Part shown: positions 45,875 to 50,067 of the stretch, in pieces
Position numbering within the stretch: the first letter of the stretch is position 1
Layout: every line of letters starts with the position of its first letter
NCBI RefSeq assembly: GCF_016862895.1
Contig: NZ_BONV01000001.1
Coordinates: forward strand, 372,001 to 436,000
Reading direction: 5' to 3'
Source of the DNA: Planotetraspora kaengkrachanensis
GTDB taxonomy: Bacteria; Actinomycetota; Actinomycetes; Streptosporangiales; Streptosporangiaceae
Length of the DNA: 64,000 nt
Position numbers and translations under genes: made by a program
Notes under the pieces: generated by a model
What the model was told of the DNA's origin: nothing
Databases searched by the model: none
The model's input: the letters and a program-made list of their open reading frames with translations, nothing else

Positions 45875-47869
45875 CTACTCGGCGGCCGCGTCCCGCTTGT
45901 TCAGCTTGGCGAGATAGTCGTTGTAGGCGTCCAGCTCGGCGTTTCCGGTGCCTCCGGTCTTCGCGGCGAGCGCGTCGGCCCGCCTGTCGTCACGGCGGGC
46001 CTTGCGGTCGTCGTCGCGCCACCACTGGATCGCGAGCGCGAGCAGCACGATGAGCGTCGGCACCTCGCCGAAGGACCAGGCGATCCCCCCGCCGGTCGCC
46101 TGGTCGGACAGCGACGACGCCCCCCATGTACGGCCCAGCTGGTCGTACCAGTCGGAGGCGAGCACCGTGCCCATGCTCATCAGCGCGACCCCGAAGAACG
46201 CGTGGAACGGCATCGTCACCAGGAGCAGCACCAGACGGGCGACGTGGGGCAGCTTGTGCGGCCCGGGGTCGACACCGATGATCACGTAGAAGAACAGGCA
46301 GCCGCTGACCAGGAAGTGCAGCGTCATCGCGATGTGCCCGATGTGCTCCTCCATGGCGGAGGCGAACAGCGGCGTGAAGTACAGCGCGTACGTCGACGAG
46401 ATGAAGATCGCCGTGGCGATGGCCGGGTGGGCCACGACCTTCATGACCCTGCTGTGCAGGATCACCATGATCCACTCGCGGGGCCCGCGGTCGCCGCGCC
46501 GCGCGGCGGGCTTGAGCGCGCGCAGCGCGAGGGTGACCGGGGCGCCCAGCACCAGGAAGATCGGCACCAGCATGGAGAGGATCATGTGCTCGGTCATGTG
46601 GACGCTGAACAGGACCGGCGCGTAGCGCGCGATCCCGCTCTGCGTCGCCAGGACCAGGATGACGACGCCCGCGAACCACAGGACGGTGCGGCTCCACGGC
46701 CATGAGTCGCCACGCCTGCGCAGCCGGACCACGCCGACGCCGTACAGGCCGGCGAGCGTGGCGGCGATCGCGGCGAAGAACAGGTCGAACCACCACAGCG
46801 TGGCCAGATTCGCCAGCGACACCGGGGGCGGCATCAGGTAGCCGAGCAGCTCGAAGACCCGGTCGATCGGGTTGGGCGCCGGCGGCGGCGCGGTGCGCGA
46901 CAGCGCGACGGCGATCCCGACGGTGGCCGCCATGATCACGATCTCGCCGAGCGCCAGGCGCAGGAACGACCGCGACTCCCCCGACGCGAGCCGGGGCAGC
47001 GTGCGCTCGCGGTGGCGCCAGCCGATCACCCCGAGGACGACGAAGGCGGCGGTCTTGGCGAGCAGCATGAGCCCGTAGGCCGAGGTGTAGAGCTGGTCGA
47101 CGGACGACAGGCGGGCGAGCACGCTCGCGACGCCCGAGATGCCCACCCCGACGAAGCACCACAACGCCATCCGGGAGAAGCGGGCGGCGGCGACGTCGAG
47201 CTGGCGCTCACCGCGCAGGGCGTGGATGCAGAGCATGCCGAGCCCGCCGACCCACAACGCCAGGAAGAGCAGGTGGAAGGCGACCGAGGTGGTCGCCAAT
47301 CCGTGGTTGGGCGAGGAGGACGAGTGCCCGGTCAGCGCGGGCGGCAGCAGCGTCGCGAGGGAGAAGACCAGCAGCCCCGCCGCGGATCCTGAGGTGATCG
47401 CACCACGGGCGAACAGGGCGATCGCGACGGCGAACAGCACGACGAGCGTCAGCGCGATGCCCTGGGGGACCTGGCTCGCGTAGCTGGTCAGCTCGTTGCC
47501 GCCGAGGATCTCCCCCACCGGCGCGCCCAGCGTCTCCGACAGGCTGAAGACCAGCGCGGAGGCCGCGGCGACGGCCCAGACGACCGCGGCCCACGAGGCG
47601 GCCTTCACATACCCCTGCGCGGGCTTGCCGAGCAGCCCCTTGTCGCTGGGCAGCAGGACCGCGCCGATGGCCAGCAGGCCCACGGTCAGCACGCCGGCGA
47701 CGTCCATCCCCAGCTTCGAGAAGGGGAGCATCCAGCGCGTCAGCATGCCCTGGTCGGGCAGGCCCGGGATGATGCGGGGGGTGGCCGCGCCTCCGGCGAC
47801 CATCCCGATGACGAGGGCTCCCGCCGCCGCGCAGAGGGCGGCGACGGTCAGGCGCAGTGTCCTGTTCAC
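45875..47869 (-). CDS. Fused CopD (copper resistance D) and CtaG (cytochrome oxidase assembly) membrane protein
   Basis: 664 residues with about 14 helices. The N-terminal half is CopD-like: an N-terminal signal-like helix, SVAFHLLFLALWVGGLGMLC with the H..W..G copper-site pattern, and LRLALGEIVIMAATVGIAVA. The C-terminal half (from about 365) is a CtaG/caa3-type assembly domain: LLFSVHMTEHMILSMLVPIF with conserved His residues, and HIGHIAMTLHFLVSGCLFFY. The start overlaps the copC stop by four bases (GTGA), so the two are translationally coupled. Role: copper uptake or delivery to cytochrome oxidase at the membrane. Confidence 0.9.
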   Translation of the reverse strand: MNRTLRLTVAALCAAAGALVIGMVAGGAATPRIIPGLPDQGMLTRWMLPFSKLGMDVAGVLTVGLLAIGAVLLPSDKGLLGKPAQGYVKAASWAAVVWAVAAASALVFSLSETLGAPVGEILGGNELTSYASQVPQGIALTLVVLFAVAIALFARGAITSGSAAGLLVFSLATLLPPALTGHSSSSPNHGLATTSVAFHLLFLALWVGGLGMLCIHALRGERQLDVAAARFSRMALWCFVGVGISGVASVLARLSSVDQLYTSAYGLMLLAKTAAFVVLGVIGWRHRERTLPRLASGESRSFLRLALGEIVIMAATVGIAVALSRTAPPPAPNPIDRVFELLGYLMPPPVSLANLATLWWFDLFFAAIAATLAGLYGVGVVRLRRRGDSWPWSRTVLWFAGVVILVLATQSGIARYAPVLFSVHMTEHMILSMLVPIFLVLGAPVTLALRALKPAARRGDRGPREWIMVILHSRVMKVVAHPAIATAIFISSTYALYFTPLFASAMEEHIGHIAMTLHFLVSGCLFFYVIIGVDPGPHKLPHVARLVLLLVTMPFHAFFGVALMSMGTVLASDWYDQLGRTWGASSLSDQATGGGIAWSFGEVPTLIVLLALAIQWWRDDDRKARRDDRRADALAAKTGGTGNAELDAYNDYLAKLNKRDAAAE

Positions 47870-48465
47870 TTCTTCTTCCGCATGCTGATGACCATGCCGA
47901 GGTAGATCCCCCCGGCGCCGAAGACCACGACCCAGATCCAGCCGGGGATCAGCGGCTTGTCCTCGTCCTTCTGGGCGTCCGCTGCCGGGCTCGCGGCGAC
48001 GGCCGCGGTGGGGGTGGCGGACGCGGTCGCCGCGTCTGACGCGGCGGAGGTGGGCGTCGCCGACGGGGTGCCCGCCTCCTGCGTGGCGGGCGGGGACGGC
48101 TTGCCCGCCACGGTGAAGGGGATCTCCCCGGTCAGCGGGTGACCGTCCTCGGAGACGACCCGCCAGGCGATGGTGTAGGCGCCGTCGGGGATCGACTCGT
48201 CGACCCCGATGCTCACCTTGACCCCGTTGACGACGGGCTGGCCGCTCTCGTAGCGCTTGCCGCCCGCGCCGCGGACCAGCAGGGTCGGGAACCGCACCGA
48301 CTCGGAGAACTCGAGGGTCACCTTGCCGAGGCTCTCGACCTCGGCGTTCTTCTCCGGTGTGCTGCTCTTCAGCGTGGTGTGCGCCTGAGCGGGAGCCGAC
48401 AGGCCCAGACTCAGCACCACGGTCGCGAGCAACGCGGCCATTACGGCGATCGGGGATCTTTTCAT
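47866..48465 (-). CDS. copC: CopC domain protein with signal peptide and C-terminal membrane anchor
   Basis: 199 residues from the ATG at 48465; the upstream-open residues lack a signal. Signal peptide AVMAALLATVVLSLGLSAPA-QA precedes His-1 of the mature CopC domain (HTTLKSSTPEKNAEVESLGK; copper ligand His at the new N-terminus). VTLEFSESVRFPTLLV, YTIAWRVVSEDGHPLTGEIP (second His) and FTVAG follow. Then come a Thr/Ala/Ser-rich linker and a C-terminal helix GWIWVVVFGAGGIYLGMVI with a Lys tail. It carries copper outside the membrane to the CopD/CtaG protein encoded just downstream. Confidence 0.92.
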   Translation of the reverse strand: MKRSPIAVMAALLATVVLSLGLSAPAQAHTTLKSSTPEKNAEVESLGKVTLEFSESVRFPTLLVRGAGGKRYESGQPVVNGVKVSIGVDESIPDGAYTIAWRVVSEDGHPLTGEIPFTVAGKPSPPATQEAGTPSATPTSAASDAATASATPTAAVAASPAADAQKDEDKPLIPGWIWVVVFGAGGIYLGMVISMRKKK

Positions 48466-48592: not shown

Positions 48593-49879
48593 TCACAGAC
48601 CCGCGCAGGCGAGCGCCTTCTGGTAGGCGGCCACGCTCAGGTCGGGATTACCCGCGCGGTCACGGAGCTCGGCGACGGCCATCCACTTCTCCGCCAGCTT
48701 CCTCGTCTGCGGAGACCCCTCCAGCCAGGTGCTCACCTGGCTCAGCTCCGCATCCGACTCCTCATCCCGGTGGAGGAGGTGGTGGGCCTGGCTGAGCAGC
48801 AGGTAGGCGTCGAGGTTCAGGCCTCCGGCGGACTCGTTCATCAGGTCCCGAGCGGCGCTCGCGTGCTCCGCCGCGTCCTCGGGGTGGTCCAGGGTCAGCT
48901 CCGCGTAGGCGAGGGACAGGGAGCAACGGGCCTTGTCCGACATGCTGGTGGCGGTCTCTTCGTAGTCCCGCGCGGCGCGCAGCAGCAGATCGCGGGCCTT
49001 CTCCACGTCGCTGGGGCGCACCCGGAGCATCGTGAACGCGTAGGCCTGGTGCAACCGGGCCAGGTTGCGCTGGTCGCCGGTCTCGGAATGGATGGCCAGC
49101 GCCCGCTCGATCAAGGACATGGCCTCCTCCCCGCGGCCGGCCTTCTCCGCCACGAGCGCGGCGTTCCAGCACGAGGCGACGTTCGCCCGTGGGCTTCCCA
49201 GCCCCTCCGCGGCGACGAGCAACTCGGCCGCGAAGTGGCCCGCCCGCATCAGGTCGCCACGCACCAGATAGGCCAGCAGGAGAGTGGCGCCGAGCTCGAC
49301 CAGGCCGTCGGTCCAGCCGCCCGAGCCGACGTCGGCGAGCACCGCCTCACCGACCTGGACCGCGGCGGAGAAGTCGCCCCGCTCCCGGTGGCACCGGCAC
49401 ATCGCGAGCGCCACGGCGATCTTCCGTTCGGCCGGCACGGTCTCGGACTCCCGGAGCTCGGACAGCACCGCGATCGCCTCAGCGAGCTCGCCGCACGCCT
49501 CGAGGGCGAGCGCGTAGCCGTACTGGGCGTCCTGGCGGAGCGAGACGAGCCCCGCGAGGCTGTTGTCGGCGAGCAGTTCAGCGAAACGCCGGCTGGCCTC
49601 TTCGACCTCGCCGTTCTCGAGAGCCATGCGGGCGAAGCTCAGGCCGACCTCGAGCTCCTGCATCTGCTCGGCGGTGACCCCGTTGACGAGATAGGTCAGC
49701 GAGCAGTCGAGCTTCTGCGCGAGCAGTTCCAGGACCGCGGGAGTCGGCGTCCGCTTGCCGCTCTCGATCAGAGACACGTAGCTATCCGAAAGTTCCGGGT
49801 GTGCTAGCTGTGCCTGGGAAAGACCACGCTGACGGCGTATCGCCTTGATTCGCTGACCAACGAGATCTTGCGCAACCAT
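48593..49879 (-). CDS. XRE-type regulator with tetratricopeptide repeats (RRNPP-like)
   Basis: About 428 residues from the ATG at 49879 (AGAGG 5 nt upstream). Residues 1-68 are an XRE helix-turn-helix: LVGQRIKAIRRQRGLSQAQL, ELSDSYVSLIESGKRTPTPA, VLELLAQKLDCSLTYLVNGV. The rest is a run of tetratricopeptide-like helical pairs (ELEVGLSFARMALENGEVEE; ALALEACGELAEAIAVLSEL; AALVAEKAGRGEEAMSLIER; SLSLAYAELTLDHPEDAAEH). Size and layout match peptide-sensing RRNPP regulators such as NprR. A tiny exported peptide is encoded divergently 53 bp away. It may act as a cytosolic receptor and repressor or activator. Confidence 0.85.
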   Translation of the reverse strand: MVAQDLVGQRIKAIRRQRGLSQAQLAHPELSDSYVSLIESGKRTPTPAVLELLAQKLDCSLTYLVNGVTAEQMQELEVGLSFARMALENGEVEEASRRFAELLADNSLAGLVSLRQDAQYGYALALEACGELAEAIAVLSELRESETVPAERKIAVALAMCRCHRERGDFSAAVQVGEAVLADVGSGGWTDGLVELGATLLLAYLVRGDLMRAGHFAAELLVAAEGLGSPRANVASCWNAALVAEKAGRGEEAMSLIERALAIHSETGDQRNLARLHQAYAFTMLRVRPSDVEKARDLLLRAARDYEETATSMSDKARCSLSLAYAELTLDHPEDAAEHASAARDLMNESAGGLNLDAYLLLSQAHHLLHRDEESDAELSQVSTWLEGSPQTRKLAEKWMAVAELRDRAGNPDLSVAAYQKALACAGL

Positions 49880-49897
49880 GGTTACCTCTTGAGACAA

Positions 49898-49910
49898 TGT
49901 GGGCCCCACA
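49898..49910. promoter_or_regulatory. Palindromic operator candidate between regulator and peptide genes
   Basis: TGTGGG-C-CCCACA is a perfect 13-bp palindrome centred in the 53-bp interval between the two divergent starts (49879 and 49933). Confidence 0.6.
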
Positions 49911-49932
49911 ACCAAACCGAACGGAGACTCCC

Positions 49933-50067
49933 GTGCGCCGCCGCCTTGCACTATCCGTACTTGCCGTAATCATCTCGACCACTGTGGCCGTAATCGGCAA
50001 TGGTACGACGACGACCGCCAGTTCGTCTCCTATGCGATCGTATGAGTTTGCGGCTGGATGCTGCTGA
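49933..50067 (+). CDS. 44-residue exported peptide (pheromone precursor candidate)
   Basis: GTG at 49933 with GGAG 6 nt upstream, stop TGA at 50065. The product starts MRRRLALSVLAVIISTTVAV, a basic N-region and hydrophobic core typical of a Sec signal; IGNGTTTTASSSP follows, and it ends MRSYEFAAGCC. The mature part would be only about 15-20 residues, with a terminal Cys pair. It is divergent from the XRE-TPR regulator and separated by a palindrome. No other gene fits this interval. Codons are unusually AT-ended (CTA, GTA, CTT, AAT, TAT), unlike the neighbours. It was judged too short for ordinary gene callers, so it would be missed. Confidence 0.65.
   Translation: MRRRLALSVLAVIISTTVAVIGNGTTTTASSSPMRSYEFAAGCC

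Follow-up and report, generated by a model that had tools for sequence, protein, structure and literature searches.

The question raised by this locus is whether a gene of only 44 codons, lying back to back with a regulator built from a DNA-binding domain and tetratricopeptide repeats (TPR), specifies a signal that the regulator reads. The window, i.e., the whole stretch of DNA that was analysed, is 64,000 nt long and comes from Planotetraspora kaengkrachanensis. A preliminary description of it had reported a 428-residue XRE-type helix-turn-helix (HTH) and TPR regulator, along with a small gene on the other strand, 53 bp from the regulator start and ending SYEFAAGCC, and both are borne out. 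The features of the locus are listed below.

48593-49879, minus strand: XRE-TPR regulator, putative peptide receptor, 428 aa, ATG start (Pfam; AlphaFold2)
48605-49672, minus strand: TPR superhelix, residues 70-425 (Pfam; AlphaFold2)
49676-49858, minus strand: XRE-type HTH DNA-binding domain, residues 8-68 (Pfam; column entropy)
49868-49898, plus strand: candidate peptide promoter, -35-like TTGCGC, 19 bp, -10-like GACAAT (by eye)
49923-49926, plus strand: Shine-Dalgarno (SD)-like GGAG of the peptide gene, 6 nt ahead of the GTG
49933-50067, plus strand: 44-codon gene for a predicted exported peptide, GTG start, ends SYEFAAGCC and stop (conservation)
49933-50022, plus strand: leader with VRRR, hydrophobic core, N-x-T and predicted cleavage after TTTTAS (rule of thumb)
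50023-50064, plus strand: predicted mature peptide SSPMRSYEFAAGCC, 14 aa (A-x-A/S rule)
50059-50064, plus strand: C-terminal Cys-Cys codons (73/82 end CC)

Pfam matches to the regulator are HTH_3 (E 7.8e-12), which is N-terminal, and TPR_14 (E 4.4e-7), and an AlphaFold2 model (mean pLDDT 89.8, pTM 0.77) displays the HTH followed by 18 helices, which in our grouping may form nine TPR-like pairs. Both Pfam and the model place the HTH before the TPRs as in RRNPP receptors, a likeness of order alone. Within the regulator, the HTH domain has the lowest mean column entropy (0.25 bits). Across 82 orthologues, third-position GC is low in the first ~50 codons (49700-49879, minus strand; 0.57-0.70 versus ~0.94), and synonymous conservation is not raised at this 5' end. 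The small ORF translates as VRRRLALSVLAVIISTTVAVIGNGTTTTASSSPMRSYEFAAGCC; its n-h-c layout and hydrophobicity fit a signal sequence, both being rules of thumb, and no Pfam or NCBIfam family matched it.

Conservation within the Streptosporangiaceae

The regulator is present at E 1e-50 or better in 232 of the 341 family genomes examined, the closest named relatives being P. silvatica (92%) and P. mira (91%). It is accompanied by a divergent ORF with a Cys-Cys (CC) end at 30/30 of the closest orthologue loci versus 0/5 paralogues (~31% identity), and such an ORF lies beside 73 of 82 Streptosporangiaceae regulators (that of the window and 81 in 80 named loci). The remaining nine, from Streptosporangium, Planomonospora and Planobispora, have a similar leader, and eight of them carry Trp-x-x-Pro tails and one (L196) ends LGPLNNAE; the Trp tails of the family read WNHPD, WSYPD, WGYPD, WQWPI, WVYPG and WNGPA. 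In the window and the named loci, the likely peptide start is 47-63 nt from that of the regulator. The ribosome-binding site claimed for the small gene recurs at these loci, where GGAG is found at most 18 nt ahead of the start in 77/82, GAGG in 1/82 and AAAGAG in 4/82, and the basic and hydrophobic, signal-like leader likewise keeps its layout across the 82 regulators. Of 70 distinct CC peptides, 59 have N-x-T within the leader and 65 a looser (N/D)-(A/V/G/I)-(T/M). The 80 named loci contain 3930 small ORFs, of which 64 end in CC and all but four of these are, by our reading, this peptide. The expectation that the small ORF would be conserved beside orthologous regulators has held for its position, start, leader and C-terminus, and similar ORFs are found beside distant homologues.

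Several loci of the family have distinct arrangements. At L042 and L043 the regulators are duplicated in tandem, each with its own, different CC peptide. The divergent ORF of L050 (genus code g58) contains four GWNGPD repeats, as though several signals were carried by a single precursor, and in this it resembles a multi-copy pheromone precursor. In g55 and g63, two genera of this family (L062-L091, L103-L105), 33/33 regulators are without a recognised peptide. In the regulator tree, the family's Trp tails form one group (11 rows, with three rule-negative rows and one CCYE row), a clade within a single bacterial family where the common end of the putative signal is of the Trp and not the Cys-Cys type and where leader and receptor are retained. 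The tree is a quick, midpoint-rooted one that gives no direction of tail-type change.

Close pairs of CC peptides (74 in all) give a pN/pS of 0.52 for the leader and of 0.95 for the tail. Over 70 distinct CC peptides, entropy is 0 at the last two positions (Cys-Cys) and 3.1-3.9 bits at the preceding nine, a measured variability of the C-terminal tail between species such as RRNPP signals display. A constrained leader, a free tail and two invariant cysteines make up the pattern to be expected of a pheromone and its receptor. The cysteines are encoded by TGC as well as TGT, and each of the two codons varies synonymously in a few rows, a sign that it is the residue that is under selection. The frame test was weak (pN/pS 0.71 in frame versus 0.75 and 1.17 in the shifted frames), and the case for translation therefore rests on the conserved start, SD-like site, leader and end.

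Two SD-like sites fall within the gap between the two starts, which at about 50-60 bp has scant space for two promoters. The TTGCGC of the candidate peptide promoter sits within the first codons of the regulator and, in the window itself, is a poor -35 element. TTGAC is found on the peptide strand over the first codons of 45/82 regulators, and in 44/82 the best promoter fit combines TTGACC or TTGACT with a -10-like hexamer lying 17-19 bp further on, an arrangement that points to a peptide promoter overlapping the start of the regulator gene. A 13-bp palindrome between the starts, TGTGGGCCCCACA, had been offered as a further clue to the circuit. It is indeed present (49898-49910), and palindromes with 6-bp arms occur in 1.6% of shuffled 53-mers; none of 81 related intergenic regions has it, those of the two closest species included, and because of this it carries no weight and was rejected as an operator. 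A TGACnnGTCA dyad occurs at the regulator start in 30/82 and is not claimed as an operator because it lies over codons and over the -35-like element, and no conserved operator was found among the intergenic regions compared.

According to Pfam, CopC-like and CopD/CtaG-like genes lie past the regulator in the window (45875-48465, minus strand), and past the peptide gene there are genes for a PucR regulator and for a molybdopterin-binding protein of the xanthine-dehydrogenase type. Of the 81 Streptosporangiaceae loci compared, 72 have a CopC-like gene at +1, and 79 have a CopD/CtaG-like gene in either the +1 or the +2 position. Such neighbours, and a Cys-Cys end without exception in the CC class, would suit a secreted peptide that binds thiols or metal (copper) or reports redox state, its vicinal cysteines acting as the sensor and the regulator answering stress. 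However, the whole stretch is syntenic, with PucR-like genes at 51 and xanthine-dehydrogenase-like genes at 45 of the same 81 loci, and at the f19 loci inspected the near genes resemble, by eye, HisC, EamA and ribonucleotide reductase instead, so that a copper link is not supported as a general feature. The Trp-tail clade also retains the regulator, and a metal ligand leaves the hypervariable tail unexplained; a metal or redox role is, in our judgement, unlikely. A short, hydrophobic ORF beside an XRE regulator might equally be a membrane-active small toxin or bacteriocin under a neighbouring XRE-TPR repressor, but the constraint on the leader and last two residues, with a free tail, and the lack of an evident modification or immunity gene among the neighbours inspected (with Pfam for the window's genes) make this very improbable.

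Distribution across the Actinomycetota

The preliminary description had placed the circuit in an actinomycete, which is too narrow for the range. A conserved mini-gene is linked to the HTH-TPR regulator in several families, and in further classes of the phylum as well. Homologues 33-43% identical in families f9, f14, f19, f20, f26 and f27 keep the CC peptide, and its place differs: it is divergent in f9, f19, f20, f27 and one f14 locus, and convergent, directly past the regulator, in f26 and another f14 locus. In deeper samples it accompanies 20/21 distinct regulators of f19 (divergent) and 24/31 of f26 (convergent), and 18 of the 22 f26 loci having a CC ORF end in Trp-Cys-Cys or Tyr-Cys-Cys. 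The sole CC ORF at L221 (f26, 32%) is ~1.6 kb downstream, and no CC ORF was found at the L212 locus (f19). Four f19 loci (L113, L116, L275 and L279) have an extra convergent CC ORF besides the divergent one, with a tail like APWND(D)GV..TPDGGS.(F/Y)CC.

In the class sample, 52 of 394 genomes carried the regulator at E 1e-45, and a profile search of the phylum found it in 24 of 396, 23 of them outside the window's genome. At 15 of these 23 loci from other classes (16 with L232) there is, by our reading, a divergent short ORF with an aromatic-Pro or CC tail. The tails (YPWPK, FPWPK, NWPKH, GWPRH, APWPPCC and APWPHCC) carry Trp-Pro or Pro-x-Cys-Cys, and the Trp-Pro ORFs of f90 and f94 are 28-31 residues long. 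One genome with two regulators (L251, L260) has a WPHVP peptide divergent at one and convergent at the other. L242, L243 and L246 belong to the 23 loci and none has a divergent peptide; at L242 and L243 (f86), a possible small exported ORF lies downstream on the same strand, with tails ending KFYPKSHTWSDGH and WSDGHL. No peptide was found beside six plasmid homologues (L117, L118, L119, L120, L121 and L122; L118-L122 are Streptomyces plasmids with homologues 33-36% identical), or at the regulator locus of phage contig L322 (MT836207).

The pooled set started from 315 places, of which 313 had a start, and came to 233 distinct regulator sequences, 231 of them (at least 370 residues) being aligned. 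L003, L012-L016 and L224 were deliberately excluded, and L119, L122, L242, L243, L246, L270 and L322 yielded no row. A signal-like ORF with a CC end was present in the divergent or convergent slot beside 142/233 distinct regulators versus 1/1606 control slots (seven other slot types of similar size, with one rule used throughout), a fraction that, like the others given here, is no prevalence estimate since loci were chosen by similarity to the window's regulator or its kin. Among the control slots, 8/1606 satisfy a less strict CCx rule, these all belonging to a single slot type, and 4/1606 pass the Trp-Pro rule, which is a loose one. By rule, no peptide was found for 58/233 regulators, including all 33 of g55 and g63. 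L112 and L311, missed by the hydrophobicity rule, were assigned convergent CC for the tree and residue comparison (144 there versus 142). The exported-looking ORFs at L099 and L196 end otherwise, and L099 was scored as none. Convergent Trp-Pro calls at L301 and L319 (f26) look like chance and were dropped from the independent-pair test.

We regard it as almost certain that the small ORF and the regulator form a real, conserved peptide-regulator module. Linkage and conservation, which are what these data establish, would also suit a regulator that simply represses a small secreted peptide and never binds it, the peptide acting outside (at the cell surface, for instance), and g55 and g63 keep the regulator without the peptide. 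Against this, the linkage outlasts the switch in gene order from divergent to convergent across families, and duplicated regulators carry their own versions of the peptide, both of which fit co-evolving partners; plain repression has, we believe, a small chance of being correct.

A proposed signal and its relation to known systems

The reading we prefer is that the small peptide is a signal read by the adjoining regulator, working like RRNPP quorum sensing, and we consider this probable. The pro-peptide would be exported by Sec and cut behind the leader, giving a peptide of about 12-17 residues, and this, or a shorter C-terminal piece, would re-enter via an oligopeptide permease, sit in the TPR groove and alter DNA binding by the HTH. 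The regulator would most likely control the peptide promoter and other targets. The tail may confer species specificity, with the Cys-Cys or Trp-Pro end as a common anchor.

That the TPR groove reads the peptide tail is something we infer from the known family and not from these data, because conservation falls in both helices and co-variation is too thin. The 43 best conserved residues beyond residue 90 are scattered over first helices (15), second helices (20) and elsewhere (8, by our count), and so conservation does not point to the groove. Clade-specific changes (5 columns in the Trp clade, 3 of them in first helices; 11 in Nonomuraea; 15 in Herbidospora, 7 in first helices) do not single it out and were rejected as a pointer to it. 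Co-variation between receptor residues and peptide type was not significant over three to five independent pairs, and three candidate positions were set aside. Cys161, considered as a partner of the peptide cysteines, occurs in 79/144 CC-type versus 2/29 Trp-type regulators, and the independent pairs were unsupportive. Residue 235 is Ala, Ser or Gly in 142/144 CC-type regulators and mostly larger in the Trp-type, with two of three independent pairs in the same direction and none opposite, which is too few pairs. Residue 239 is Asn in 139/144 CC-type, 12/29 Trp-type and 12/55 peptide-less regulators, the pairs being not significant; it is Glu in 33/55 of the peptide-less regulators.

A broader reading, held tentatively and in our view somewhat doubtful, is that of an old, phylum-wide peptide communication in Actinomycetota, separate from the RRNPP systems of Firmicutes, in which lineage-specific tails would share a Cys-Cys or Trp-Pro end read by the TPR groove; here the cysteine pair could add redox or metal dependence, or linkage to receptor cysteines. 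Actinomycetes are a main source of antibiotics. A pair kept across families and classes would supply testable pheromones with named species, and would offer a handle on the behaviour of rare actinomycetes. In the literature searched (open-access, no preprints), no account of a peptide-receptor pair of this kind in Actinomycetota was found. According to PMC10075063, actinomycetes are held to signal with small molecules, and the scan it describes covered Firmicutes and viruses alone.

The RRNPP-like pheromone circuit of the preliminary description stands as regards layout and species-variable tail. No sensor-domain homology to known RRNPP members was detected by phmmer, as the weak matches to PlcR and ComR (E 0.0017-0.0065) cover the HTH alone, within residues 5-67. 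Since this homology was tested and not found, we class the pair as RRNPP-like in operation and claim no membership. Foldseek searches with the regulator model retrieved PlcR with PapR7 and DNA (3u3w, E 2.1e-7; also 2qfc) and Rap of phage phi3T with its pheromone (E 8.7e-7), with TMq values for PlcR and Rap of 0.35-0.53 and eukaryotic and designed TPR proteins ranking equally high. Among actinobacterial proteins, NCBIfam matches to NsdA-family TPR regulators and RamB are weak, far under cut-offs, and partial, being to the middle TPRs for NsdA and the HTH alone for RamB.

In the PlcR-PapR system, a receptor with HTH and TPR domains is adjoined by a small exported pro-peptide that has the signal at its C-terminus. 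The present pair resembles this RRNPP system of the Bacillus cereus group in its HTH-TPR receptor and its adjoining small pro-peptide (predicted to be exported here, and within the 10-100 aa typical of the family), and PlcR is among the fold matches along with equally close eukaryotic TPR proteins, whereas it belongs to another phylum, has a longer TPR array and a C-terminal Cys-Cys or Trp-Pro, and its sequence match is confined to the HTH. Rgg-SHP and ComR-ComS of Streptococcus are alike in that their pro-peptides are very short and the tails a few residues long, and ComR also in the HTH match, but sensor-domain homology to them was not detected and gene order in the present system varies by clade. 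SHP and XIP peptides have Trp-rich ends, and it is their layout that the short Trp-Pro ORFs of f90 and f94 resemble.
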